DNA from: Thermanaeromonas toyohensis ToBE
GTDB lineage: Bacteria > Bacillota > DSM-521 > Neomoorellales > Neomoorellaceae
NCBI RefSeq assembly: GCF_900176005.1
Contig: NZ_LT838272.1
Location: 186,001 to 250,000, forward strand
Length of the DNA: 64,000 bases
Direction of reading: 5' to 3'
Shown here: one piece after another, positions 7,209-43,121 of the stretch
How positions within the stretch are numbered: the stretch's first letter is position 1
Layout: each line of letters begins with the position of its first letter
Translations under genes and position numbers: made by a program
Notes under the pieces: generated by a model
What the model was told of the DNA's origin: nothing
The model's input: the letters and a program-made list of their open reading frames with translations, nothing else
The model's database searches: none

Positions 7209-8245
7209 AGGCAGCATTTTATATAGAACCAGGGCAGATAGAAATACGGGAAGTATCTTTACCCCCGTTAGAAAAAGGGGATTGGCTAATTAAAGTAATG
7301 GCGAGCGGCGTATGCGCTACTGATGCCAAGACTTACTTGCGGGGCCATCCATTTATAAAGCCACCAGCAGTTCTCGGGCATGAAGTGGCAGGAGTAGTGG
7401 TAGCTGCCCCAGTGGGGATTAATAACAAAGACGGGCCGCAGGAAGGGGACCGTGTGGTGGTGGCGCCTTATATTCCTTGTGGCCGTTGTTACTGGTGCAG
7501 CAATGAGCAGCCGACCCAGTGCACTGCCCTTTTTGCTACTAGCATTGAACCTGGCGGTTTTGCGGAATATGTACGTGTACCAGCAAATACTGGGGGTCGG
7601 GCGCTTTATCGCCTTCCTGACGACCTTGATTATGCTGAGGCTAGCCTGACAGAACCAGTAGCCTGTGCTTTACACGGCATTGAGGCTTCTCGCATTAAAG
7701 CCGGGCAAACAGTGCTTGTTATTGGTGATGGACCAATGGGTATCCTTTTGGCCCGCCTGGCTAAAGTCTTTGGCGCTCGCGTTTTTCTAAGTGGGATGTT
7801 ACCCCACCGTCTGAAAATTGCTGCCCAGGGCCTAGATGGCATTTTCGACGCCTGCCACGAGGAAGTTGACCTACGCCCTTATACCTGCGGGCGCGGGGCT
7901 GATGTGGTACTAATTGCTGTAGGCGTACAAGAGGCGATCAGTTACGGAGTCCGTAATGTGCGTCGGGGTGGTATAGTTAACTTTTTTGCAGGGCTTCCTA
8001 AAGGTACGACTTTCCCGCTGGACCTAGAGCAGGTTCATTATGGAGAAGTTACTTTCATGGGTACTTTCGGTTTTACGCCTGGACAATTTGCCCGCGCACT
8101 CGAATTTATCGCTTCCAGACAAATATATTTAGCCGATCTTATTACCGCACACTACTCTTTGATGGAGACAGAACAAGCCCTAAAAGATACACTGGCTTGT
8201 AACGGCCTTAAGAGCTTAATACTTCCTTGGGGAGGTGAGGTATAG
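7199..8245 (+). CDS. Zinc-dependent medium-chain alcohol/polyol dehydrogenase
   Basis: A 348-residue member of the medium-chain dehydrogenase family. The catalytic zinc site includes GVCATDAKTY and LGHEVAGVV. The structural zinc site is complete, with four cysteines in CGRCYWCSNEQPTQC. The Rossmann segment follows as VLVIGDGPMGILLARLAK. It probably oxidises a sugar alcohol or hydroxyl group of the imported substrate with NAD(P). It overlaps the aldolase gene and precedes the ECF transporter, so it is part of the same catabolic transcript. Confidence 0.88.
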   Translation: MPVKAAFYIEPGQIEIREVSLPPLEKGDWLIKVMASGVCATDAKTYLRGHPFIKPPAVLGHEVAGVVVAAPVGINNKDGPQEGDRVVVAPYIPCGRCYWCSNEQPTQCTALFATSIEPGGFAEYVRVPANTGGRALYRLPDDLDYAEASLTEPVACALHGIEASRIKAGQTVLVIGDGPMGILLARLAKVFGARVFLSGMLPHRLKIAAQGLDGIFDACHEEVDLRPYTCGRGADVVLIAVGVQEAISYGVRNVRRGGIVNFFAGLPKGTTFPLDLEQVHYGEVTFMGTFGFTPGQFARALEFIASRQIYLADLITAHYSLMETEQALKDTLACNGLKSLILPWGGEV

Positions 8246-19615: not shown

Positions 19616-22600
19616 ATGAACCTACCCCGGTTAGCTGTAAACCGGCCGGTGGCCGTACTTATGAGCATCCTGGCGGCCATGCTTTTAGGTATGGTAGCTT
19701 TAACCCGCCTCCCGATAGACCTTTTGCCGGAGCTAAATTTACCTTATGCGGCAGTGATAACAAACTACCAAGGGGCAGGACCAGAAGAGGTGGAGAAGTC
19801 CATAAGCAAGCCTCTAGAGGAGGCCCTGGGCACTGTCCACGGGATAAAAAACATCCGCTCTATGAGCATGATGGGTACCTCCGTATTGGTTTTAGAGTTT
19901 GAATGGGGTACTAATATGGACTTTGCTACCCTGGAGATGCGGGAGAGGATCGACCGGGTCCAGGGGTTTTTACCCGACGGGGCAGACAAGCCCATGGTGG
20001 TTAAAATGGACCCCAATATGATGCCCGTGATGACCCTGGCTTTATACGGGGATAAGGATGAGGCGCGGCTTAAGGATCTGGCCGAAAATATAGTTAAAAA
20101 GAGGCTTGAGCGGCTAGAAGGGGTAGCAGCTGTCAGCGTAACGGGAGGCTTTAAGCGGGAAATACAAGTGCTGGTATACCCTGAACGCCTAAACTTTTTC
20201 GGGCTCTCCCTCGCCCAGGTGGTTCAAACCCTGGCGGGGGAAAACACCACTTTTGCTGCAGGCAAAGTGGAGGATGCCGGTAAAAATGTACTAGTACGGG
20301 TCACGGGAGAATTCAAAAGCTTAGAAGAGATAGAAAGAATAGGCTTTCCCACTTCGGGTGGAGGGATCGTACGCTTAAAGGATATAGCTAAAGTAGAGGA
20401 TACCCATGCCGAACGCACAAGCCTTGCCTTGCTGGATGGCAGGCCGGCCATAGGTTTATCCATACAGAAGCAGGCGGGGGCCAATACAGTGGCCATCTCC
20501 CGGGAAGTGAAGAAAGCTATAAGTGAGATGGCCAGTAGTTTACCCCCGGGGGTAAAGGTAGAGCCCATAGTGGACAATGCCAAGTACATAGAGGCAGCCA
20601 TCCAGGGGATATACCGGGATATGCTTTGGGGTAGCCTCCTGGCCATGGCCTTAATCCTCCTTTTTCTTAGAAACTTTAAGTCTACCCTGGTCATCGGCCT
20701 TACCATACCTGTTTCCGTGATCACTACCTTTGTCCTTCTTTACTTTGACCGCCTTAATTTGAACCTTATAACCCTAGGAGGGCTCTCCTTAGGTATAGGC
20801 CGCATGGTGGATGATGCTATCGTAGTATTTGACAATATCTACCGTCACCGCCAGCTAGGGGAGGAACCGGTCCAGGCGGCCATAAGCGGGACCGGAGAGG
20901 TGGCCAACGCAGTGGTGGCTTCCACCCTTACCACCATAGGTGTCTTTTTGCCGGTGGCCTTTGTCCAAGGGTTGGCCTCCCAGCTTTTCACGCCTATGGC
21001 CTTTACCGTGGCCTTATCCCTTCTGGCCTCCCTGGCTGTATCTCTAACCGTTACTCCTATGCTGGCTGCCCGTATCCTGGCCGGAGAATTGCCTAAAGAA
21101 GAAAGAACAGGGCGGGGCCTTTGGCAGGTGCTCTGGTCTGGCTCCTGGCTTACCTCTTTAACCTCTTTTTATAAGCGGGCCCTACAGTGGAGTTTAAACC
21201 ACCGGCCGGCTGTGATCTTATTTACTTTAGCTATTTTTACCGGCGGGCTAGCTTTAATCCCGGCAGTGGGAGTAGAGTTTTTCCCCGCTTCGGATGAAGG
21301 AACTATAAATATTAGCCTGGAATTACCTAAAGGTACTCTTCTATCTGAGACCTCTCGGGTTGCAGAGAGAATAGTGGAAATAATTAAGGGGGAACCCGAG
21401 GTTAAGAGTATTTACGAGGTAGTAGGCGGTTCTACAAGCCAGATGAGTATTTTAAGCGGGGAGACACCGGAGATAGCCAGCATAACGGTGAGGCTGGTAG
21501 ACCGGTCGGAAAGGCGGCGCAGTTCAGAAGAAGTAGCCTCGGCCTTGCGCCGGAAGCTAAGGCAGATCCCTGGGGCTAAAATTACAGTGACCGCGGCCTC
21601 GGGCTTTGAGAGCGGGGGTCTGACACAAGCGCCGGTGCAGGTGGATATCCACGGGGATGATTTGTTTACTCTGAAAGAGTTGGCTCTGCAGGTTAAACAA
21701 ATAGTATCTCAGGTACCGGGGACAGTGGGGGTGGAGAGCTCCTTTACCCAGGGCAGGCCCCAGGTAGAGGTAATAGTCGACCGCGAGAAGGCTGCCCTCT
21801 ATAATTTGTCTTCCGCGCAAGTGGGGAACATTGTAGCTTCAGCTGTGGGAGGGAAAGTGGCTACCCGCTACCGCGTGGGAGGAGAAGAGTACGATGTAAG
21901 AGTCCAGTTACCCCTTTCTTCCCGCCGCACCTTAATGGATCTAGAAAACCTTACCGTACCTTCTCCCCTAGGGATCCAAGTGCCTCTAAAAGAAGTGGCC
22001 CGCTTTAAAATAGATACCACCCCCTCTACCATAAATCGCTACAATCAAGAGAGGGTAGCTAGCGTCACCGCCAACATATCGGGTCGGCCTTTAGGGGATG
22101 TTATACAGGATATAAGGAGAGGCTTGAGCGAGCTTAAGCTTCCACCGGGTTATCGGTTTGAATTTACCGGCCAGAACAAGATGATGCTGGAATCCTTTGG
22201 CCAGCTAGGCATGGCTTTAGTGATGGCTATCCTTTTGGTGTACATGATCATGGCCGCCCAGTTTGAATCCTTATTTCATCCTTTTATAATCATGTTTTCC
22301 ATTCCTATCTCCTTAACGGGAGTAGTCCTCGCTTTGCTCTTAACTCGCCGCACCTTTAGCGTCACCGCTTTCCTAGGAGTTATAATGCTGGCAGGGGTAG
22401 TGCTATCTAACGCTATCGTGCTGGTGGATTATATTAACCTTTTGCGCCGCCGGGGGCTGCCCCGGGAAGAGGCTATCCTGCAAGCTGGGGCTACTAGACT
22501 GCGGCCCATACTGCTAACCGCTTTTACTACTATCCTAGCCATGCTTCCTTTAGCAGTAGGGCTGGGGGAGGGAGCTGAAATGCAGGCGCCCCTGGCCACG

Positions 22601-22732
22601 GCTGTTAGCGGGGGACTTTTGGTTTCTACCCTTTTGACCCTGGTATTTATACCTGTGCTGTATACCCTCCTTGAGGATTTAGGAATAAGGCTTTTCTGCC
22701 GTTTTAAGGTAAGCAAGGGGATGGGCGCATAA
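19616..22732 (+). CDS. RND-family efflux pump (AcrB/HAE type)
   Basis: A 1038-residue pump in two homologous halves, each with one N-terminal membrane helix, a large extracytoplasmic domain and a bundle of helices. The proton-relay aspartates are in GRMVDDAIVVFDN (about residue 400). The second half repeats the pattern, with GVVLSNAIVLVDYINLLRRR near residue 940. The length is normal for the family. RND pumps usually feed a TolC channel in an outer membrane; the only TolC-like gene here is 5 kb downstream in the ECF-sigma unit. A terminator follows the gene. Confidence 0.95.
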   Translation: MNLPRLAVNRPVAVLMSILAAMLLGMVALTRLPIDLLPELNLPYAAVITNYQGAGPEEVEKSISKPLEEALGTVHGIKNIRSMSMMGTSVLVLEFEWGTNMDFATLEMRERIDRVQGFLPDGADKPMVVKMDPNMMPVMTLALYGDKDEARLKDLAENIVKKRLERLEGVAAVSVTGGFKREIQVLVYPERLNFFGLSLAQVVQTLAGENTTFAAGKVEDAGKNVLVRVTGEFKSLEEIERIGFPTSGGGIVRLKDIAKVEDTHAERTSLALLDGRPAIGLSIQKQAGANTVAISREVKKAISEMASSLPPGVKVEPIVDNAKYIEAAIQGIYRDMLWGSLLAMALILLFLRNFKSTLVIGLTIPVSVITTFVLLYFDRLNLNLITLGGLSLGIGRMVDDAIVVFDNIYRHRQLGEEPVQAAISGTGEVANAVVASTLTTIGVFLPVAFVQGLASQLFTPMAFTVALSLLASLAVSLTVTPMLAARILAGELPKEERTGRGLWQVLWSGSWLTSLTSFYKRALQWSLNHRPAVILFTLAIFTGGLALIPAVGVEFFPASDEGTINISLELPKGTLLSETSRVAERIVEIIKGEPEVKSIYEVVGGSTSQMSILSGETPEIASITVRLVDRSERRRSSEEVASALRRKLRQIPGAKITVTAASGFESGGLTQAPVQVDIHGDDLFTLKELALQVKQIVSQVPGTVGVESSFTQGRPQVEVIVDREKAALYNLSSAQVGNIVASAVGGKVATRYRVGGEEYDVRVQLPLSSRRTLMDLENLTVPSPLGIQVPLKEVARFKIDTTPSTINRYNQERVASVTANISGRPLGDVIQDIRRGLSELKLPPGYRFEFTGQNKMMLESFGQLGMALVMAILLVYMIMAAQFESLFHPFIIMFSIPISLTGVVLALLLTRRTFSVTAFLGVIMLAGVVLSNAIVLVDYINLLRRRGLPREEAILQAGATRLRPILLTAFTTILAMLPLAVGLGEGAEMQAPLATAVSGGLLVSTLLTLVFIPVLYTLLEDLGIRLFCRFKVSKGMGA

Positions 22733-22925: not shown

Positions 22926-22953
22926 CTCGTGGCGCGGGGCCACGAGGTTTTTT
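22926..22953 (+). terminator. Rho-independent terminator before the sigma factor gene
   Basis: CTCGTGGC and GCCACGAG form an 8-bp stem with a 5-base loop, followed by GTTTTTTG. It would stop transcripts starting near copy 2 of the 38-bp site and insulates the sigma gene, whose own promoter lies 30 bases further on. Confidence 0.85.
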
Positions 22954-22982
22954 GTGTTTAAAAAAATTTGCTTTTTGTTCGC

Positions 22983-23006
22983 GAAACTTTCTGCCCTCTC
23001 CTTCGT
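22983..23006 (+). promoter_or_regulatory. ECF-sigma promoter, copy A (before the sigma gene)
   Basis: GAAAC at 22983-22987 and TCGT at 23003-23006, 15 bases apart, with the extended form CGAAACTTT...CTTCGT. The same arrangement and spacing occurs before the anti-sigma gene and before the stalk-protein gene, indicating autoregulation by the sigma factor encoded just downstream. Confidence 0.75.
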
Positions 23007-23058
23007 GATTATTACCGAAGTCACGACCCAACCTGGGCTATTTAAAGGGAGCTTATCT

Positions 23059-23637
23059 ATGCCTGAAGTTGAGACTCTAATAGCCAAGGTGCAGGAGGGG
23101 GATACTTCTGCCTTTGAGGAGCTGGTGATGCTTTATAAGGATAAAGTATATTCCCTAGCCCTTACTTTAACAGGAAACCATGTAGATGCAGAAGATCTGA
23201 CCCAGGAAATTTTCTTTAAAATTTATATCTCGCTCCCGGAATTTGCTCAGGGGAAAGGGAGTTTTGAGGCGTGGGTACATAGGATGGGGGTTAACCTTTG
23301 GATAGACTGGTGGAGGCGGCGGAGGAAAATCCGGAGTTTTTCCTTAGAAGGGGTAATGGATTCCAAGGAAGAAGGGGGGAAGTGGGAAATACCTGACGAT
23401 AAAGATGATGTCCAGGAGACAGTGGCTAAGCGAGAATTTTGGCGAGCAGTGTGGAAGGCTTATAGAGAGCTCCCAGAGAGCTACCGCCTTACCTTAAAGC
23501 TAAGAGCTATCGATGAGCTTTCCTATAAAGAAATAGCCGCTACCTTAGGCGAAAGCGAGGCGGCAGTGAAGTCCCGCTTAAACCGTAGCCGCCAGCTACT
23601 TAAAGAAAAGCTTAAAAGCTTGGGATACCTTTCCTAA
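23059..23637 (+). CDS. ECF-type RNA polymerase sigma factor
   Basis: About 192 residues. Region 2 is FEELVMLYKDKVYSLALTLT with the DAEDLTQEIFFKIY core-binding helix and a basic WWRRRRK end. Region 4 has the helix-turn-helix ELSYKEIAATLGESEAAVKS. Sigma-1 and region-3 domains are absent, as expected for an ECF factor. A longer frame opens at 22954 inside the terminator region; ATG 23059 after AAAGGGAGC gives the standard ECF N-terminus. It is followed by its anti-sigma factor and by genes with the same promoter, so it probably runs an envelope response. Confidence 0.93.
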   Translation: MPEVETLIAKVQEGDTSAFEELVMLYKDKVYSLALTLTGNHVDAEDLTQEIFFKIYISLPEFAQGKGSFEAWVHRMGVNLWIDWWRRRRKIRSFSLEGVMDSKEEGGKWEIPDDKDDVQETVAKREFWRAVWKAYRELPESYRLTLKLRAIDELSYKEIAATLGESEAAVKSRLNRSRQLLKEKLKSLGYLS

Positions 23638-23656
23638 AAAAATACCGGTTAGTCAC

Positions 23657-23680
23657 GAAACTTTCCTGCTAAATATTCGT
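23657..23680 (+). promoter_or_regulatory. ECF-sigma promoter, copy B (before the anti-sigma gene)
   Basis: GAAAC at 23657-23661 and TCGT at 23677-23680 with a 15-base gap, in the context ACGAAACTTTCC...ATTCGT. It lies between the sigma and anti-sigma genes, about 85 bases before the anti-sigma start, so the anti-sigma factor can be induced separately as negative feedback. Confidence 0.72.
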
Positions 23681-23764
23681 TTTAAATAATACGAAAGGGT
23701 GCTTAAAGAGATGCTTTCCTGGGACGGGCAGGTCTATTAAGAGGGCAAAAGGTGGTTAAACTTT

Positions 23765-24877
23765 ATGAGATGCTGGAAGGCAAGAAAGTTGCTCTCACCT
23801 TATATAGATGGGGAGCTAGGCGAGGAGGAAAGGTCCTCGCTTGAAGGGCACTTGGCTAATTGTCCTGCCTGCCAGGAAGAGCTGGAGGCATTGCGCAAGA
23901 TATCTGAAGGGTTAAAAGATATATACCGCCAGGTGAAACCCCCGGCTGGTTTTGCGGAAGGAGTCATGGCCCGGATAAAGGCGATAGAGGAAGCAAGTGC
24001 TTCCCCTTGGCAGCTACAGGAGAAGCCGTTAAAGTGGCGCAAGGTAGCGGTGGCTGCTGCTCTTGTAGCGGGAATAGGCTTGGCGGTGCTGCAATATGGC
24101 CGTGCAGGGATAGGCGGGCCAGCGGGAGCTCCTTTGCTGAGCGGGAATATAGCTGCACCGGGAAGTTTAGCAGTAGAGGAGAAAGTAAGGGGCGAAGCTC
24201 CTAGCAATTCCTTAGGAGAGAGAGAAAAGATCCCGGTAGTGAGTAATCCTGGGGCTAAAGAAGGTGATAGGCTTCTAGACCAAAAGAAAGAAGGCCAAAG
24301 TAAGGGAAAGAAAACTTATGCCGGGGTGGAAACTGTGCCTAAAGCTGGCTTAGAGGCAGGGCCGTTGGTCAAGCAAGAAAAGCAAGGTCAGGTAGCTTCA
24401 AGCAGCGTGGGTTCGCCGGCGGTGGGAGGAAAAGCAGAACTCAAGCCCCAGCTATTTTTAAGCAAAGAGCTACATGTGCGCACTACCCTACTTAAACTTG
24501 AGGTGAAAAACCTCCCCTATGCCAAAGAAGTCGTTTTAGCCTTAGCGGAGAAATTTGGGGGTAGTCAGCCCAAAGAAGTTTGGGTTTACCAGCAGGAAGA
24601 GGTGCTCTTAAGAGTTGTCCTTCCAGTAGAGAAGGCGAGCGGGTTTATATCTCAGGTAGTGGCTTTAGGAAAAGAAATGGCCCGGGAAAGGAGCACCGTA
24701 GATTTGACCGGGGAGTATAACCGCAGGCTACTAGAATATCAAGAGCTCGAAGCCAGACAAGATCCGGAAAGCGAGGCAATGGCTAGGGCTTTAAAGAACT
24801 ACCTGGAAGAAACCGGACAAGAAACCCTGGAAGCGGGGAAAGAAGTGATCAATGTGTGGCTTAAGCTACAGCCCTAA
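23765..24877 (+). CDS. Membrane anti-sigma factor with zinc-finger domain
   Basis: A 370-residue protein. Residues 1-50 form a zinc-binding anti-sigma domain, with the HLANCPACQEEL His-Cys-Cys motif (His3Cys-type ZAS). One membrane helix follows at about residues 93-110 (VAVAAALVAGIGLAVL). The extracytoplasmic part starts with a low-complexity Gly/Lys/Glu-rich stalk (about 115-230) and ends in a domain of about 130 residues without a clear family, with long helices at the end. It should hold the upstream ECF sigma factor at the membrane until an envelope signal is sensed. Confidence 0.88.
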   Translation: MRCWKARKLLSPYIDGELGEEERSSLEGHLANCPACQEELEALRKISEGLKDIYRQVKPPAGFAEGVMARIKAIEEASASPWQLQEKPLKWRKVAVAAALVAGIGLAVLQYGRAGIGGPAGAPLLSGNIAAPGSLAVEEKVRGEAPSNSLGEREKIPVVSNPGAKEGDRLLDQKKEGQSKGKKTYAGVETVPKAGLEAGPLVKQEKQGQVASSSVGSPAVGGKAELKPQLFLSKELHVRTTLLKLEVKNLPYAKEVVLALAEKFGGSQPKEVWVYQQEEVLLRVVLPVEKASGFISQVVALGKEMARERSTVDLTGEYNRRLLEYQELEARQDPESEAMARALKNYLEETGQETLEAGKEVINVWLKLQP

Positions 24878-24938
24878 AGGCTCTAAAGTGTATAGAAAAT
24901 ACAGGTAAAGCTTTATGGGTAAAAAATATCGTGGGCGC

Positions 24939-24962
24939 GAAACTTTTGGAGGATATCTTCGT
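24939..24962 (+). promoter_or_regulatory. ECF-sigma promoter, copy C (before the stalk-protein gene)
   Basis: GAAAC at 24939-24943 and TCGT at 24959-24962, again 15 bases apart, in the context GCGAAACTTTT...CTTCGTTATTA. The predicted start of transcription is about 265 bases before the downstream gene. Confidence 0.75.
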
Positions 24963-24969
24963 TATTATT

Positions 24970-25234
24970 ACTTGGAAATGGCAGGGTAAAGAAAGGGAAA
25001 GGAGACACCTCTGGAGCGCCTGGCCGCGCCAGGGATAAGATAAAGCCTTGTGGCAAGAAAGAAGATAAAGGGGGGATGCAGTCCCGGTAGCGCCGTGTTG
25101 GGCCCCCAGAGGATGAGCGAGTGTAACGCGGGGGTGTAGCAAAGGCGGTCGGGGAGGGGAAAGGGAAGAACGGTAAAAGAAGGCATTATCACCTTAAACA
25201 CTATCATTCTTAAAACTTTAGGGAGGGGAGAAAG
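24970..25234 (+). promoter_or_regulatory. Long 5' leader of the stalk-protein gene
   Basis: About 265 untranslated bases separate promoter copy C from the TTG start at 25235. The leader is G-rich and can form local hairpins, for example CCTGGC/GCCAGG near 25019-25033 and CCCCC (near 25106) with GGGGG (near 25130). It does not match a riboswitch I can name. It might control stability or translation of an abundant surface-protein mRNA. Confidence 0.4.
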
Positions 25235-27562
25235 TTGGCAAAAACGAGGAAGAAGTGGCTGTCAATCTTGGTAACCCTCGCTATGCTAGTCGGTTTAATG
25301 GTGCCTTTCGCCGGACCGGCAGCGGCTGTGGGTACGGCGTACACGCCGATTACAGTCCCAACGGTTGAAGATGATACTGCCCATGCCAAGCTAGGCTCAT
25401 TTCAAATAGAAATTGATCCTATGTATTCTTCTGTAACCTCGGAAGCATGGATAGAGCTACCGCAGGATTATGAAATTTATCAGGTGCAGTTTACGGGTCT
25501 CGGTTTAGATGCTTCGAATGCTGTTACAAGAGTTACATTTACGGATCAACAAGCTGTAAATAAGGTAGTTTATGAGGAAAGCGGAAAATATAATACTTTT
25601 GTTACCGTCTCCGACAAAACGAAACGCGGGTTCAAATTATCATTCAGTGGCGGTAATATATCTGGTCAAAAATTCCGCTTGCTCGTAGAATTCACAGATG
25701 TAAAGGTGCCCGCTGGTGCGAGTGGTGATATCAAGGCTACGATCAAGAATATTTCGGGCCAGCTAGTTGATGGCAGCGTGGTAATCGGCAAAATTGCTGG
25801 TGGCGGGCTCCAGGTAGCTGCAGTGGACACCGATACTTTCTCTGATGCTGGAGGCTATGTAAAGATACGCCTTGAAGAAACTGTGGCCGGCAAGCTCAAT
25901 GCGAAAGATGAGCTCAAGCTGGAGCTGCCCGACGGCTTTGAGTGGGGCGACGTCAATATCAATGGCGGAACATTGGACGATACGAAGAATGTAGGCGCAA
26001 AAATCATATATGGTACTTTGGGTAGCAGTGGTGATGTATCGAAAGTCAAGTTCATTTCCGACGGCGATACGCTGAAGATGTCGCTGGTAGACGATGTTTA
26101 CAAGTCTACGGATAAAGTGGCCATAGACTTCTGGGTACCCATCAAGGTAACCGATACCAGTAAAGCTAAATATGGCGATGTGATTGCGAAAGTAAAGGGC
26201 GACTATACTGTGAGCCCGAGCGAAATCATAGTAGGCACCTATGGTGAGTACAAGGCGACTGTTAGCGCTAAAGACTCTTCCAAGGTAGTCTATGCTGGCC
26301 AGCATGATCAGGAAGTTAGCGATATCAAGATCACAGAGGCAATGAAGGAGAGCCTCGTACCAGGCAGGACAATCACGCTCACTTTGCCGCCCAATGCCAG
26401 GTGGTGGAAGATTGACGACCAGCGTGTTGATAATCAACTCAAGCCAGGCGATAGCGTGGATGAGGATAGCGGTATTAAGCTGGTATTCAAAGGCCTCGAA
26501 GGTACCGATGATCGCACAGCGAAGTTTACCGTTGAGCTGGCTTCAGGTAACACTGGTAAAGGTTCTACGGACAAGGCAGAGCTCACCATCGAAAATATCA
26601 CTGTAGACCTCCAAGCTGGCTATACAGGGGATCTAGTAGTTGAAGTTGGCGGTAGCGCCGGTGTAAGTGGCAGGATTACGGTCGCTAAGGTGGTCAATCC
26701 CGTAACAGTAACCGCCGAGAAGACAAACGTACAGCTTGGCAAGGCTAACCAGGTGGCGGGTAAGATTACTATAACTGAGCAGGGAGCAGGTGCTATTGAT
26801 ACTGATGACGGCAAGAGGGAACTGGTGTTAGGGCTGCCGAGCGGTGTGAAGTTTAGCTCTAAGCCCGAAGTTAAGGTAACCAAGGGCGACATCGAGATCG
26901 ACCAAGTCTCCCTTGTGAACGACGATCGCGATCTCAAGATCAAATTTAAGGATGACAGTAACGAAGCTAGCACTATCGAGATTAGCGGTATTTACTATGA
27001 CATCGATCGGACCGTTGGCGAAGGCGATATCCAGGTTAAGGTTGGCGGCCCTGCGCTGGTAATTACCGACACGGAAGGCTATGATAAGGATAAGGATGGA
27101 GTAGTTGATAAAGCCTTCTTCCCGGGCGATGACTATGTTGTGAAGGTCGTCAACGCTACCGTTGTGACTCCGGCTCCGTCCGAGGCCAGGCAGACGGCAG
27201 TGTTCACCATTAATAGCACTACCTACACCGTGAACGGCGTCCAGTCCACTATGGATGTTGCCCCGTACATCAAGGATAGCCGCACTTACCTGCCTATCAG
27301 GTATGTAGCCTATGCCCTCGGCATCTCGCCCGAAAACGTGATCTGGGATGGCGTTAAGGCCACCTTCATCGGGCAGGGCCGCGTGGTTCAAGTCACTCCT
27401 GGCAGCGCGATACTGAGCATCAACGGTGCGCCCGTTACCATGGACGTGGTAGCCGAAGTGGTCAACGGCCGCGTGATGGTGCCGTTCAGGTGGGTGGCCC
27501 AGGCCTTCGGTGCTCAGGTGGACTGGGACGAGGCTACTCAGACCGTCACCATGAAGCTATAA
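25235..27562 (+). CDS. Large secreted protein with C-terminal copper-amine-oxidase-like stalk domain
   Basis: A 775-residue protein. A signal peptide is clear (basic KTRKKW, then LVTLAMLVGLMVPFAGPAAA). The middle 500 residues are beta-rich repeats with many short Asp, Gly, Val and Lys strands and no catalytic motif I recognise. The last 120 residues form a stalk domain: TYTVNGVQSTMDVAPYI, RTYLPIRYVAYALGI and VMVPFRWVAQAFGAQVDWDE. The TTG start at 25235 follows GGGAGGGG. It is under the ECF promoter and shares its unit with a TolC-like gene. It is probably a surface or S-layer-associated structural protein. Confidence 0.82.
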   Translation: MAKTRKKWLSILVTLAMLVGLMVPFAGPAAAVGTAYTPITVPTVEDDTAHAKLGSFQIEIDPMYSSVTSEAWIELPQDYEIYQVQFTGLGLDASNAVTRVTFTDQQAVNKVVYEESGKYNTFVTVSDKTKRGFKLSFSGGNISGQKFRLLVEFTDVKVPAGASGDIKATIKNISGQLVDGSVVIGKIAGGGLQVAAVDTDTFSDAGGYVKIRLEETVAGKLNAKDELKLELPDGFEWGDVNINGGTLDDTKNVGAKIIYGTLGSSGDVSKVKFISDGDTLKMSLVDDVYKSTDKVAIDFWVPIKVTDTSKAKYGDVIAKVKGDYTVSPSEIIVGTYGEYKATVSAKDSSKVVYAGQHDQEVSDIKITEAMKESLVPGRTITLTLPPNARWWKIDDQRVDNQLKPGDSVDEDSGIKLVFKGLEGTDDRTAKFTVELASGNTGKGSTDKAELTIENITVDLQAGYTGDLVVEVGGSAGVSGRITVAKVVNPVTVTAEKTNVQLGKANQVAGKITITEQGAGAIDTDDGKRELVLGLPSGVKFSSKPEVKVTKGDIEIDQVSLVNDDRDLKIKFKDDSNEASTIEISGIYYDIDRTVGEGDIQVKVGGPALVITDTEGYDKDKDGVVDKAFFPGDDYVVKVVNATVVTPAPSEARQTAVFTINSTTYTVNGVQSTMDVAPYIKDSRTYLPIRYVAYALGISPENVIWDGVKATFIGQGRVVQVTPGSAILSINGAPVTMDVVAEVVNGRVMVPFRWVAQAFGAQVDWDEATQTVTMKL

Positions 27563-27578: not shown

Positions 27579-27610
27579 AGGACCCAGGTCCGGGTGCGGA
27601 CCTGGGTCCT
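27579..27610 (+). terminator. Very stable intercistronic hairpin
   Basis: A perfect 13-bp stem (AGGACCCAGGTCC with GGACCTGGGTCCT) and 6-base loop, followed by ATAATTTGGG rather than a T-run. It lies 17 bases after the stalk-protein stop and 20 bases before the TolC-like start. It probably protects the upstream mRNA or reduces read-through into the TolC-like gene. Confidence 0.65.
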
Positions 27611-27629: not shown

Positions 27630-28760
27630 TTGCAAAGGGCCTTACTGGCACTAGTCCTGGTTGCTGTTTTCGTGTTGAGCTTTGGTATGGTAGAAGCAGC
27701 TGCTGCAAAGGATACGCTGAGTTTGGACGAGGCCATCAAGCTGGCCCTGGAGCACGACAGGGGCATAAAGAAGGCGGCGGCCGAGATCGACCGCACTAAG
27801 GCCCTACGGGACCAGGCGCAGGAGGATGTACAGTTTACGCCGGTACTGGGAGGCTACGTCGGCCCCTACGGCCCGCAGATAGAGGCTAACTGGAACAAAC
27901 TGCTTTCCTATGACCTGGCCTGGAGGGTCAGCAAGAGGGACTACGAGGCGAAGATAGACGCCCTGGTACTGGATGTGTGCAAGAAGTACTGGGATGTGCA
28001 GGTTGCCCAGAGCAAGTTAACCCTCCAGGAGAAGCTTAAAGAGCAGGCGCTGGTTAACCTGCAGAACGCCAGGGCTGGTGTAGCCGCAGGCACTATAGCA
28101 CAGTCCATATTAACTATCGCAGAGGCCCAGTACCAGCAGGCAGTGAAGAATTGCGAGCTGGCGCGGCACGAATTGGATGACGCATACAACGCACTGAACC
28201 AGACCATTGGGCTGGATGCTGGCGAAAGACCGGAGCTTACTGACGACGTCAAGTTTGAGCCCTTGAAGGTAGACAGCCTTGAGGCCGAGGTGTCCAGGGT
28301 GCTGGATAAAGACCCCAACGTATGGAAGGCGCGGCAGAATATAGACCTTAAAAAATGGGCGGCGGACATGATGTACTTTATTAAAGGGGTTTACACCCCC
28401 TACGAGGCCAGGCAGAAGGAGTTGGAGGAGGCGGAGCTGGACTACGCCAACGCGCGAGAGGTTATGGCTAAATTTACGCGGACCATTTACTACCAGGCCA
28501 AAAAAGTCGAGGAAGGCTATGCCGCGGCGTTAGAGGCCCTCAAGATGGCGGGGGAAAAGCTGCGCGTGGAAAGGGCCAAATACGAGGTGGGGATATCCAT
28601 TAAAGCAGACGTGCTGGCTGCTGAAGTAGCCGTGGTCCAGGCGAAGCAGGCCCTGGATGACCTGGTGCGGAAGCATGCCTACTTGAAGCTTGCCTTTGAG
28701 AAGCCCTGGGCTGTAAGTACGGGAAGCGGGAGTACTGGGAGCAGTGGGTCTGGCAACTAG
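27630..28760 (+). CDS. TolC-like outer membrane efflux (OEP family) protein
   Basis: A 376-residue protein with a signal peptide (LLALVLVAVFVLSFGMVEAA) and two OEP-type halves. Helical repeats such as LSLDEAIKLALEHDRGIKKA and DALVLDVCKKYWDVQVAQSK alternate with short linkers. The length is close to a small TolC homologue, and it ends in a Gly/Ser-rich tail. The TTG start at 27630 follows GGGGGTGG. TolC proteins normally form channels through an outer membrane; in a Moorella-like cell it may instead sit in the S-layer or wall and serve the RND pumps upstream. Expression is linked to the ECF unit. Confidence 0.8.
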   Translation: MQRALLALVLVAVFVLSFGMVEAAAAKDTLSLDEAIKLALEHDRGIKKAAAEIDRTKALRDQAQEDVQFTPVLGGYVGPYGPQIEANWNKLLSYDLAWRVSKRDYEAKIDALVLDVCKKYWDVQVAQSKLTLQEKLKEQALVNLQNARAGVAAGTIAQSILTIAEAQYQQAVKNCELARHELDDAYNALNQTIGLDAGERPELTDDVKFEPLKVDSLEAEVSRVLDKDPNVWKARQNIDLKKWAADMMYFIKGVYTPYEARQKELEEAELDYANAREVMAKFTRTIYYQAKKVEEGYAAALEALKMAGEKLRVERAKYEVGISIKADVLAAEVAVVQAKQALDDLVRKHAYLKLAFEKPWAVSTGSGSTGSSGSGN

Positions 28761-34449: not shown

Positions 34450-36340
34450 GTGCGCCCGGCATGGGCGTTAACTTGGTGGTGAGAGTCCACTGCAGGCGAG
34501 GCAGCACGAGCCTGCTAGCCGAAGGCAAGGGTGTCCATCGTGAGGTGGAATCCGAAGGAAGCCGGAGGCAAAGCCACGGCCCGATGAACAAGAACCCCAT
34601 AAGAGGCTAAGCCGTTCGGATGAGCTGGCATAACACAGCGAAATCCCAGGCAGACATAAGGACGGCGGAGTATATGGGGCGGGCGCGGGGTGAAGGTTAA
34701 CGCTCTTACCCGGGGAGGCCTGCCGGATAAGCCAGGTAGAGCTGGTAACCCGTGTCGGAAGGCACGGCTGAACTGGCAGGAGGAAGCTTTGGGCATAGTA
34801 CCCTGGGGGTCATGAACTCCAGGGGAAGGCCCGAACATCAAGTCAGAGGTGGGACTGGTGCGTTCGCGAGAAGGGCGAAGAAAGCAGAAAACCCCGGAAG
34901 GGGCCTGCCCACAGGAGGAAGTGGTGAAGCCACGGGGGACTGGGGGAGGGCCGAGTTCTTCTCCGGCACAAGGCGGGACGTCACCTCGCGGAGGCCAAGG
35001 TAGCGGCCTGATGGAGCAGGTGGTGGAAAGAAGCAACATGCTGGCCGCTTTGAGGCGGGTAGAGCGGAACGGAGGCGCGCCCGGCGTAGATGGCATCCCG
35101 ACCGAACGGCTTCGGGACCAAATTCGTGCCGAATGGCCGCGCATCCGGGAGGAATTGCTTACAGGTACCTATAGGCCTAAGCCCGTGCGCCGGGTCGAAA
35201 TCCCGAAACCCGGGGGAGGCAAGCGGCTATTAGGGATACCTACCGCAATGGACCGCCTGATCCAGCAGGCTCTCCTGCAAGTATTGACGCCCATTTTCGA
35301 CCCGCAGTTTTCGGAGGCCAGTTACGGGTTTCGGCCTGGGAGGAGAGCCCATGATGCGGTAAGGAGAGCGCGTCAATACGTGGAAGAAGGATACGAATGG
35401 GTCGTGGACCTGGACATAGAGAAATTCTTTGACCGGGTCAACCACGACATACTCATGGCCCGAGTGGCCCGAAAAGTGACAGATAAGAGAGTGCTTACCC
35501 TTATCCGTCGCTATCTCCAGGCAGGTGTCATGGTAAACGGGGTGGTCGTAGAGACGGTGGAAGGGACGCCGCAGGGCGGGCCTTTAAGTCCACTTTTGGC
35601 CAACATACTCCTGGACGACCTGGACAAAGAACTGGAGAAGAGGGGCCACAAGTTTGTCCGCTATGCTGATGACTGCAACATTTACGTCAAGAGCAAGCGG
35701 GCGGGGGAGAGGGTCATGGCAAGTATCCGTAAGTTCCTGCAGGAACGGTTGAAGCTCAAAATTAACGAGCAGAAAAGTGCGGTAGACCGGCCGTGGAAAC
35801 TGAAATTCCTGGGGTTTAGCATGCACAAGCGCAAGACAGGAGAAATTCTTATCCGCCTGGCGCCTCAGACCATCGAGCGGGTGAAAGGGAAAATTCGGGA
35901 GATAACTGCCCGGAATAAACCCGTGAGTATGGCCGAACGCATAGAGCGTCTCAACGCCTATTTGGGCGGGTGGATAGGATACTTTGCCCTGGCCGAAACG
36001 CCCAGCGTTTTTGAGGAGATAGAAGGCTGGATGCGGAGGAGGCTACGCATGTGCCTCTGGAAGCAGTGGAAGCGAGTACGGACCAGATATCGGGAGCTAC
36101 GCGCATTGGGACTGCCGGAATGGGTGGTACATCAATTTGCTAATGCTCGCAAAGGGCCATGGTGGATGGCTCATGGTCCAATGAATAGAGCCCTGGGTAA
36201 TGCCTATTGGCAGTCCCAGGGCCTCATGAGCTTAACCGAACGCTATTCTTGTCTTCGTCAAGCTTGATGAACCGCCGGATGCGGACCCGCATGTCCGGTG
36301 GTGTGAGAGGACGGGGGCTAGCCGCCCCCTCCTACTCGAT
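34450..36340 (+). mobile_element. Complete group IIC intron
   Basis: The 5' end is GTGCG at 34450, as required for group II introns. Domain V lies just after the reverse-transcriptase stop (about 36270-36303), with a CCGGATGCGG arm pairing with CGCATGTCCGG and a CGC triad at 36273-36275, the variant typical of class C. Domain VI (a GGGGGC/GCCCCC hairpin) follows and the intron ends in CTACTCGAT at 36340. The insertion directly downstream of a terminator hairpin is the known target choice of group IIC introns. The total is about 1.89 kb, with no disruption seen in the encoded protein, so it may still be mobile. Confidence 0.88.
35011..36267 (+). CDS. ltrA: Group II intron reverse transcriptase/maturase
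   Basis: About 418 residues. The reverse transcriptase has GTPQGGPLSPLLANILLDDL and the catalytic FVRYADDCNIYV motif (about residue 215). The maturase (X) domain follows, with LNAYLGGWIGYFALAE and RRLRMCLWKQWKRVR. There is no endonuclease domain, as expected for class C intron proteins. An open frame extends upstream to 34849 inside the intron RNA, but ATG 35011 (MEQVVERSNML) gives the normal N-terminus. It assists splicing and retrohoming of its host intron. Confidence 0.93.
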   Translation: MEQVVERSNMLAALRRVERNGGAPGVDGIPTERLRDQIRAEWPRIREELLTGTYRPKPVRRVEIPKPGGGKRLLGIPTAMDRLIQQALLQVLTPIFDPQFSEASYGFRPGRRAHDAVRRARQYVEEGYEWVVDLDIEKFFDRVNHDILMARVARKVTDKRVLTLIRRYLQAGVMVNGVVVETVEGTPQGGPLSPLLANILLDDLDKELEKRGHKFVRYADDCNIYVKSKRAGERVMASIRKFLQERLKLKINEQKSAVDRPWKLKFLGFSMHKRKTGEILIRLAPQTIERVKGKIREITARNKPVSMAERIERLNAYLGGWIGYFALAETPSVFEEIEGWMRRRLRMCLWKQWKRVRTRYRELRALGLPEWVVHQFANARKGPWWMAHGPMNRALGNAYWQSQGLMSLTERYSCLRQA

Positions 36341-41304: not shown

Positions 41305-41489
41305 GGAAAAAATAGAGGCGCTGAATTCCCTTAAATCTTAGGGAAGCGGGGGACCCGTATTTTGGGGTGAATCCCGGGAAATTTGGTTCCCGGGTAGGGC
41401 CGCCCCTGGGCCCGAACCCGTCAGCTAACCCCGTAAGCGCAAGGTAGGGGATTGCTCGAGGAAACATGGAGGATCTCCATGATTTTTTA
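41305..41489 (+). promoter_or_regulatory. Cyclic di-AMP riboswitch (ydaO/yuaA type)
   Basis: The RNA shows the conserved blocks of the ydaO class in order: CGCTGAATTCCC, GCGGGGGACCC, TTGGGGTGAATCCCGGG, GGGCC, then AACCCGTCAGCTAACCCCGT and AAGCG. The aptamer spans about 41310-41460. A terminator hairpin follows at once, so binding of c-di-AMP should stop transcription of the operon. In other Firmicutes this riboswitch controls potassium transporters and wall hydrolases; here it precedes an APC transporter and two TrkA-type genes. Confidence 0.9.
41465..41489 (+). terminator. Riboswitch expression-platform terminator
   Basis: CATGGAG and CTCCATG form a 7-bp stem with a 3-base loop, followed by ATTTTTTATT. 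It is the switchable terminator of the c-di-AMP riboswitch. Confidence 0.85.
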
Positions 41490-41558: not shown

Positions 41559-43121
41559 ATGGGTGCGATGGAAGAAACTAAACTAGAGTTAAGGCGAGAT
41601 GTATCTGTGTGGGGCTCCTTTATGTGGGGTTATGCTGATGTGGGAGCGGATATATATGCAGCCCTAGGGTTAGTGATGCTTTGGGCTAAAGGCGCAAGTG
41701 TTCTGGCTTTTGCCCTGGCAGGGTTAGTATATATAATGATCGGCCTGGCCTATACTGAGCTTGCCGCTACTTACCCGGTAGCTGGGGGAGGGCAGTATTT
41801 TACCCTGCGGGGGCTAGGGGATTTCTGGGGTTTTGTAGCCGGTTCAGCCTTGCTTTTGGATTATACTATCGATATAGCCCTTTTTTCTGCCGCCTCGGCC
41901 GGGTATATTAATTTCTTTGTTCCTTACCTTTTTAACGTGGATGTTAAAGACTTAACGGTAAGCTTAGGTCCCTTCCACCAGGTAAACTTAGTTTGGATGG
42001 CAGAATCCCTTCTTTTGGTAGCCTTCCTTATCTGGCTTAACATTCGAGGCATCCGGGAATCTTCCCTGCTTAATGAGATCTTAGGAGCTATCGATATCCT
42101 TACAGAATCTAGCATCATCGTATTTGGCTTCCTTTTTGCCTGGAAGCCAGAGCTCTTGGCTTACCAGTGGCACACCCAGTTTCCTACCCTTAAGGAATTT
42201 ATGTATGGCTCTTCCCTAGCCATAATTTCCTTTGTAGGGCTAGAATCTATTTCCCAGGCTGCCCAGGAGACCAAGAGGCCAGCCACCATAGTTCCCCGGA
42301 CCTCGGTGACCCTGATTTTCACTGTATTTATTTTTGCCACTGCCTTTTCTACCATGAGCCTAGGGGTTTTGCCTTGGCAGGAACTGGCGGAAGCTATAGG
42401 TGACCCTGTGGCGCGCCTGGCCCATGCTATTCCCTTTATCGGTGTCATCGCCGGGCCCTTTGCTGCCTTGCTCGGTGCTACCATCCTTTTAATTTCTGCC
42501 AATTCAGGGGTGATGAGCGCTTCCCGCCTCACCTACTCTATGAGCCAGTTCCATTTTATCCCGGAATGGTTTAATGCTGTGCACCCGCGCTTCCGCACTC
42601 CTTACCGGACCATACTGGTCTTTTCCCTCATTGGCGTCGTGCAGTTAATCCTTTCCTTTCTTACCCCTAATGCCATGGATACTTTAGGCAATATGTATGC
42701 CTTTGGGGCCACCACAGGGTATATTCTAGTGTTTATAGCCCTGATTAAGCTTCGCTTCTCAGATCCTTATTCACCCCGGCCCTATAAAGTGCCCTTTAAC
42801 ATTAAGGTGAGGTATCATAACCGGATAGTAGAGTTTCCTATTTTGGGAGTATTGGGGATGCTGGGGGTAAGTCTTATCTTGTTTGAAGTTATCCTTACCC
42901 ATGCCATAGGAAGGATAGCTGGCCCAGCTTGGGTTGTTTTAAGCTTTTTGTTTTATGCCTGGTACCGCCGGAAGCATGGCCTCCCTATATTAGGTAGTAT
43001 ACCGCGTGATTGGGAGGCTGAGCAGATGAGGGTTTTGGAGAGCGCCGAAGAATATGAACTCCTGGAACGATATAAGCTAGCCCTCCGGGAACGGAGGAAA
43101 AAGGAGGTAGCCCAGGCGTGA
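41559..43121 (+). CDS. APC-superfamily permease, probable potassium transporter
   Basis: A 520-residue membrane protein with about 12 helices of the amino acid-polyamine-organocation superfamily. ADVGADIYAALGLVMLWAKG in helix 1 and YPVAGGGQYFTLRGLGDFWG after helix 2 are typical. The upstream c-di-AMP riboswitch and downstream Usp and TrkA genes fit a KimA-like potassium importer better than an amino acid permease. KimA itself carries a longer cytoplasmic C-terminal domain; here the Usp domain is a separate gene. ATG 41559 is unusually far (17 bases) from the GGAGG at 41537-41541. Confidence 0.82.
   Translation: MGAMEETKLELRRDVSVWGSFMWGYADVGADIYAALGLVMLWAKGASVLAFALAGLVYIMIGLAYTELAATYPVAGGGQYFTLRGLGDFWGFVAGSALLLDYTIDIALFSAASAGYINFFVPYLFNVDVKDLTVSLGPFHQVNLVWMAESLLLVAFLIWLNIRGIRESSLLNEILGAIDILTESSIIVFGFLFAWKPELLAYQWHTQFPTLKEFMYGSSLAIISFVGLESISQAAQETKRPATIVPRTSVTLIFTVFIFATAFSTMSLGVLPWQELAEAIGDPVARLAHAIPFIGVIAGPFAALLGATILLISANSGVMSASRLTYSMSQFHFIPEWFNAVHPRFRTPYRTILVFSLIGVVQLILSFLTPNAMDTLGNMYAFGATTGYILVFIALIKLRFSDPYSPRPYKVPFNIKVRYHNRIVEFPILGVLGMLGVSLILFEVILTHAIGRIAGPAWVVLSFLFYAWYRRKHGLPILGSIPRDWEAEQMRVLESAEEYELLERYKLALRERRKKEVAQA

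Follow-up and report, generated by a model that had tools for sequence, protein, structure and literature searches.

Judging from their sequence, placement and conservation, three copies of a single motif, designated P1, P2 and P3, very likely serve as promoters for the ECF sigma factor whose gene lies at 23059-23637. The features of this locus, in coordinates of the window (the whole 64-kb stretch of DNA that was analysed), are as follows.

22926..22952, + strand: terminator-like hairpin with T-run (8-pair stem, then GTTTTTTG), a consensus match only; closes the upstream RND-pump gene
22982..23006, + strand: P1, predicted sigma promoter, CGAAACTTT-N11-TTCGT; predicted start ~23011-23014
23059..23637, + strand: ECF sigma factor, 192 aa (Sigma70_r2 2.4e-19, Sigma70_r4_2 7e-13)
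23656..23680, + strand: P2, predicted anti-sigma promoter, CGAAACTTT-N11-TTCGT; predicted start ~23685-23688
23765..24877, + strand: anti-sigma factor, 370 aa, with N-terminal zinc-binding domain, hydrophobic helix and C-terminal DUF4349-like domain
24938..24962, + strand: P3, predicted promoter of the stalk-domain gene, CGAAACTTT-N11-TTCGT; predicted start ~24967-24970; this genome only
25067..25086, + strand: AAAGGGGGGATGCAGTCCCG, the conserved core of the leader 5ʹ of the stalk gene; without Rfam match
25235..27562, + strand: secreted protein of 775 aa whose C-terminus carries a PF07833 (stalk) domain (3.8e-41); predicted P3 target
27579..27610, + strand: strong hairpin in the gap between the stalk and TolC-like genes; lacks a clear U-run; seen in six loci
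27630..28760, + strand: TolC-like protein (OEP family), 67 bp beyond the stalk gene

The motif GAAAC-N15-TCGT occurs at 22983-23006, 23657-23680 and 24939-24962, where the earlier note had placed it, always on the + strand, and the window contains no further match. Shuffled versions of the window held 0.25 copies on average and none of 100 reached three, in agreement with the claim that the repetition is hard to explain by chance. The extended context described in the note likewise holds, CGAAACTTT and TTCGT being common to all three copies. Moreover, each copy is located between genes and oriented toward the gene it was proposed to serve: P1 is flanked by the RND stop at 22732 and the sigma ATG at 23059, P2 by the sigma stop at 23637 and the anti-sigma ATG at 23765, and P3 by the anti-sigma stop at 24877 and the TTG that starts the stalk-domain gene at 25235. 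An AT-rich, TATWA-like stretch is found 3ʹ of the sites, at the expected transcription start. Upstream of P1, the hairpin at 22926..22952 closes the RND-pump gene, and sigma is therefore predicted to begin a new transcription unit. Ortholog alignments lend no support to a longer sigma ORF starting at GTG 22954.

A genome-wide scan, put forward in the earlier note as a check on the bare motif, went against it. GAAAC-N15-TCGT has 11 matches in the 3.33-Mb genome versus 42 for the reversed control, and most of the eight that lie outside the locus are within ORFs. The extended pattern CGAAACT-N13-TTCGT has three genomic matches, which are P1, P2 and P3 (control, one match); locus specificity is a property of the extended motif, not of the bare motif. 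When up to three mismatches are allowed, the genome yields 215 matches versus 392 for the control, which leaves no basis for calling additional targets. The sole genomic match with one mismatch was rejected as an extra target, as it sits inside a hydrogenase-like gene.

Genome-wide scans were made with patterns; in addition, a weight matrix built from the sites of relatives alone was run on the 64-kb window. P1 (38.8 bits), P3 (28.2) and P2 (17.4) occupy the first three ranks, and the best score among 30 random 64-kb sequences is 16.3 bits. As P2 barely exceeds this random maximum, its assignment rests mainly on conserved position. When the relatives are included, the invariant core of the site is CGAAACTT-N14-CGT, which ends in CGT because several anti-sigma sites read GCGT in place of TCGT.

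An alternative is that a dimeric regulator, such as the TetR protein encoded nearby, uses the same sites as operators by binding the dyad CGAA-N14-TTCG. Most sites do contain a CGAA/TTCG inverted repeat, and a TetR gene lies near sigma in three genomes. However, conservation is lopsided, with CGAAACTT kept on the left and strictly just CGT on the right; several anti-sigma sites read GCGT or ATCGT, which breaks the dyad, and 3 of 9 arm positions match. Furthermore, the gene-facing orientation is invariant, which is unexpected for a dyad, and the L087 and L088 clusters have sites without a TetR match in the loci read. An operator function is accordingly considered highly improbable, and the sites are best treated as promoters.

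The identity of the presumed cognate sigma factor, as named in the earlier note, is borne out by its Pfam Sigma70_r2 and r4 matches. The protein carries PF04542 and PF08281 above cutoff and no other sigma domains, the content that defines ECF (group 4) factors, and scores 96.4 bits against TIGR02937 (cutoff 42.9). Its relatives of solved structure include SigE, SigW and RpoE. The anti-sigma factor encoded downstream has the class I zinc-binding signature, H-x3-C-x2-C plus an N-terminal Cys; the residues concerned (C3 and H29-x3-C33-x2-C36) are invariant in 7/7 orthologs. One hydrophobic helix spans residues ~91-114. DUF4349 is matched by all seven orthologs, with the window protein scoring below the Pfam cutoff. 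In the predicted structure (mean pLDDT 64.9, with a confident C-terminal domain), the fold of the N-terminal domain resembles RslA at a TMt of ~0.63-0.68 with a nonsignificant E value, and the C-terminal domain has no significant structural match in the PDB. A literature search for ECF sigma factors together with DUF4349 found no paper.

Conservation among relatives ties the sites to this sigma factor. A close sigma ortholog (55-100% identity; next-best matches ≤42%) is present in six of the 18 family genomes compared, and each of these six has a site both before sigma and before anti-sigma. In the genomes lacking the ortholog, the extended pattern was found in 1 of 12, as a single match on the opposite strand and inside an ORF. 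Co-occurrence of motif and ortholog gives a Fisher p of ~4e-4, in which independence is overstated because the genomes are related. All sites face the downstream gene with identical spacing. The zf-HC2 anti-sigma gene adjoins sigma in most related loci, and a site precedes it in seven of eight, including loci in which sigma is not adjacent. The exceptions to adjacency are G004, through rearrangement, and G336, through an insert. In G004, anti-sigma comes first, followed by the stalk gene, the TolC-like gene, the pump genes and finally sigma, and both sites are retained. G336, a member of another family, has two clusters; in the first, the insert splits sigma from anti-sigma, and a good site, which was not among the training sites of the matrix, is found before anti-sigma only. 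This small insert (L130:6774-7900) resembles, by eye, a DUF433-type gene pair, and the anti-sigma motif is at 7989. In the second, more distant cluster, sigma and anti-sigma abut, and sigma is preceded by a -35-like CGAAACTTTT with a different -10 region. The full site before sigma is absent in both G336 clusters.

Because relatives keep the first two sites, the locus is very probably self-controlling. The same conservation before sigma and anti-sigma backs the autoregulation and feedback claimed in the earlier note, and conservation in relatives also supports its anti-sigma assignment, here a zinc-finger protein, and the predicted separate promoter of that gene. Autoregulation combined with separately promoted feedback inhibition is a prediction well supported by this comparative evidence.

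Alternatively, a different ECF sigma factor of this organism could read the sites as its promoters. Three further ECF matches are present, and overlapping specificity is possible among ECF sigmas. This assignment is very unlikely given that the motif tracks the ortholog of the adjacent sigma across the 18 genomes. In addition, the ECF paralogs of ~40% identity, which occur in most motif-less genomes, have GGAACTTTT...TGTCTAA upstream. This Firmicutes class is related to the locus sigma in regions 2 and 4 and differs from it in upstream motif. As these paralogs carry their motif across the phylum, the locus motif is not the general ECF promoter of these bacteria; a distinct motif for a different paralog class is what would be expected if promoter and sigma were matched. 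The adjacent sigma factor thus remains the preferred reader of P1, P2 and P3.

Two known systems resemble the locus, as does the broader group of autoregulated ECF sigma factors. SigW of Bacillus subtilis, which is paired with RsiW, recognizes promoters of the form TGAAAC-N16-CGTA. The -35 core and the GAAAC-N16-CGT spacing agree with the locus sites, whereas the latter have CGAAACTT for TGAAAC and TTCGTG for CGTA. Among NCBIfam models, the one for SigW matches sigma best (5.4e-37); the score of 127.4 bits is under the 209-bit equivalog cutoff, which leaves the protein outside SigW proper. Sigma also matches the SigW structure 5wuq (7.1e-25), and the anti-sigma factor matches RsiW weakly (E 0.027). 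Unlike the SigW-RsiW system, the locus has an anti-sigma gene with its own promoter copy and a DUF4349-like outer domain, and its regulon appears limited to one locus. The second system is Tt-RpoE1/Tt-TolB of Thermoanaerobacter tengcongensis, in which an ECF sigma factor activates its own gene and is restrained by a membrane anti-sigma factor encoded downstream (PMC3397946). The locus shares the thermophilic Firmicute origin and the downstream gene for a membrane anti-sigma factor, and own-gene activation is predicted for it; however, Tt-TolB has a TolB-like domain and begins 2 bp after sigma, with no separate promoter region (PMC3397946), whereas the sigma/anti-sigma gap at the locus is 127 bp and contains P2. 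A literature search on ECF regulation in Moorella found no paper.

What the DNA shows directly is where the sites are, how far they are conserved and which domains the proteins contain; the mechanism is most likely the standard one, and self-control is a common design. The membrane-anchored anti-sigma factor would hold sigma until an envelope signal, presumably sensed by the extracytoplasmic DUF4349-like domain, frees it. Sigma bound to RNA polymerase would then read CGAAACTT as the -35 element and TTCGT as the -10 element, starting transcription near the predicted positions. Output from P1 would supply more sigma, a positive loop, and output from P2 would supply more anti-sigma from its own promoter, a negative loop. 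In this genome, P3 would additionally drive the secreted stalk-domain surface protein. Such a circuit provides a testable promoter consensus for Moorella-like thermophiles, whose regulation is little known, and joins sigma, anti-sigma, surface protein and TolC-like protein in a compact conserved module. The separate anti-sigma promoter, retained after gene separation, illustrates a preserved negative loop.

P3 differs from P1 and P2 in its distribution. An equivalent before the stalk gene is absent in all six other loci examined, which would fit a functionless chance or decayed copy, with P1 and P2 alone real and the stalk gene read from P2. This is improbable: P3 scores 28.2 with the relatives-only matrix against 17.4 for P2, far above random, it is intergenic and correctly oriented, and another genome has likewise acquired a third site, upstream of an envelope-type gene (L085:12483). 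That copy, in G017, precedes an HlyD-type efflux gene, unlike the target of P3. As a functional promoter, P3 looks like a recent local addition, and the regulon is read as a small core (sigma, anti-sigma and any genes sharing the anti-sigma transcript) that has acquired single promoters in different lineages. P3 in this genome would lift the stalk protein without lifting anti-sigma, a concrete case of one lineage's sigma regulon gaining a target. The name "stalk protein" derives from the PF07833 domain alone.

Least explained among the elements seen at the locus is the stalk-gene leader. In 7/7 related loci (the window, L085, L105, L087, L088, L130 and L131), its core, AAGGGGGGATGC-N-GTCCCG (with CTATCC in two of them), is found 160-360 bases 5ʹ of the stalk gene, and a stricter form matches these loci only among 22 genomes of the class scanned. 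A GGGGTRG-N-GATA segment is common to three leaders, which also have an upstream hairpin in common; at least one compensatory pair was seen by eye. Rfam gave no leader match for the window and six stalk-gene leaders, and the 270-nt window leader folds with a stability no greater than that of shuffled sequences (z -0.73). Two candidates were set aside: a short leader peptide, as the frame following the ATG is not conserved, and an extra leader-like match on contig 3 of G017, which falls within coding sequence. Tentatively, an undescribed cis-acting RNA, made up of the conserved-core leader, the upstream hairpin present in several genomes and the strong 3ʹ hairpin, might control the stalk-domain cistron. 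If so, the leader and 3ʹ hairpin would separate the output of this cistron from that of the preceding anti-sigma and following TolC-like genes.

The 3ʹ hairpin is present in the gap between the stalk and TolC-like genes in 6/6 loci checked (the window, L085, L087, L088, L105 and L130), differing in sequence and similar in position. Its role may be to shield the stalk mRNA at its end, to terminate part of the transcripts, or both. The earlier note had named both downstream genes as targets. The stalk-domain gene is supported as a predicted target, through P3 and in this genome only. The TolC-like gene, which lies behind the hairpin and has no sigma motif of its own in the window scan, is a possible downstream target through read-through, and co-regulation is plausible from conserved gene order. 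The genes 3ʹ of P3 encode, in order, the stalk protein, the TolC-like protein, a TetR regulator, an HlyD protein and ABC-2 transporter components.

No Omp85 match was found in the genome, and an outer membrane is therefore unlikely. Thermanaeromonas toyohensis belongs to this bacterial group. It is listed as a monoderm (PMC11448272). The TolC-like gene (27630-28760) and the RND pump gene (19616-22732) coexist in this genome without an Omp85 match.

Elsewhere in the window, pieces of a group II intron at 34534-36340 (D1-D4 and domain V matches) flank a 472-aa ORF at 34849-36267. Additionally, a c-di-AMP riboswitch (41309-41454, 101 bits) is located upstream of an ORF at 41559-43121.
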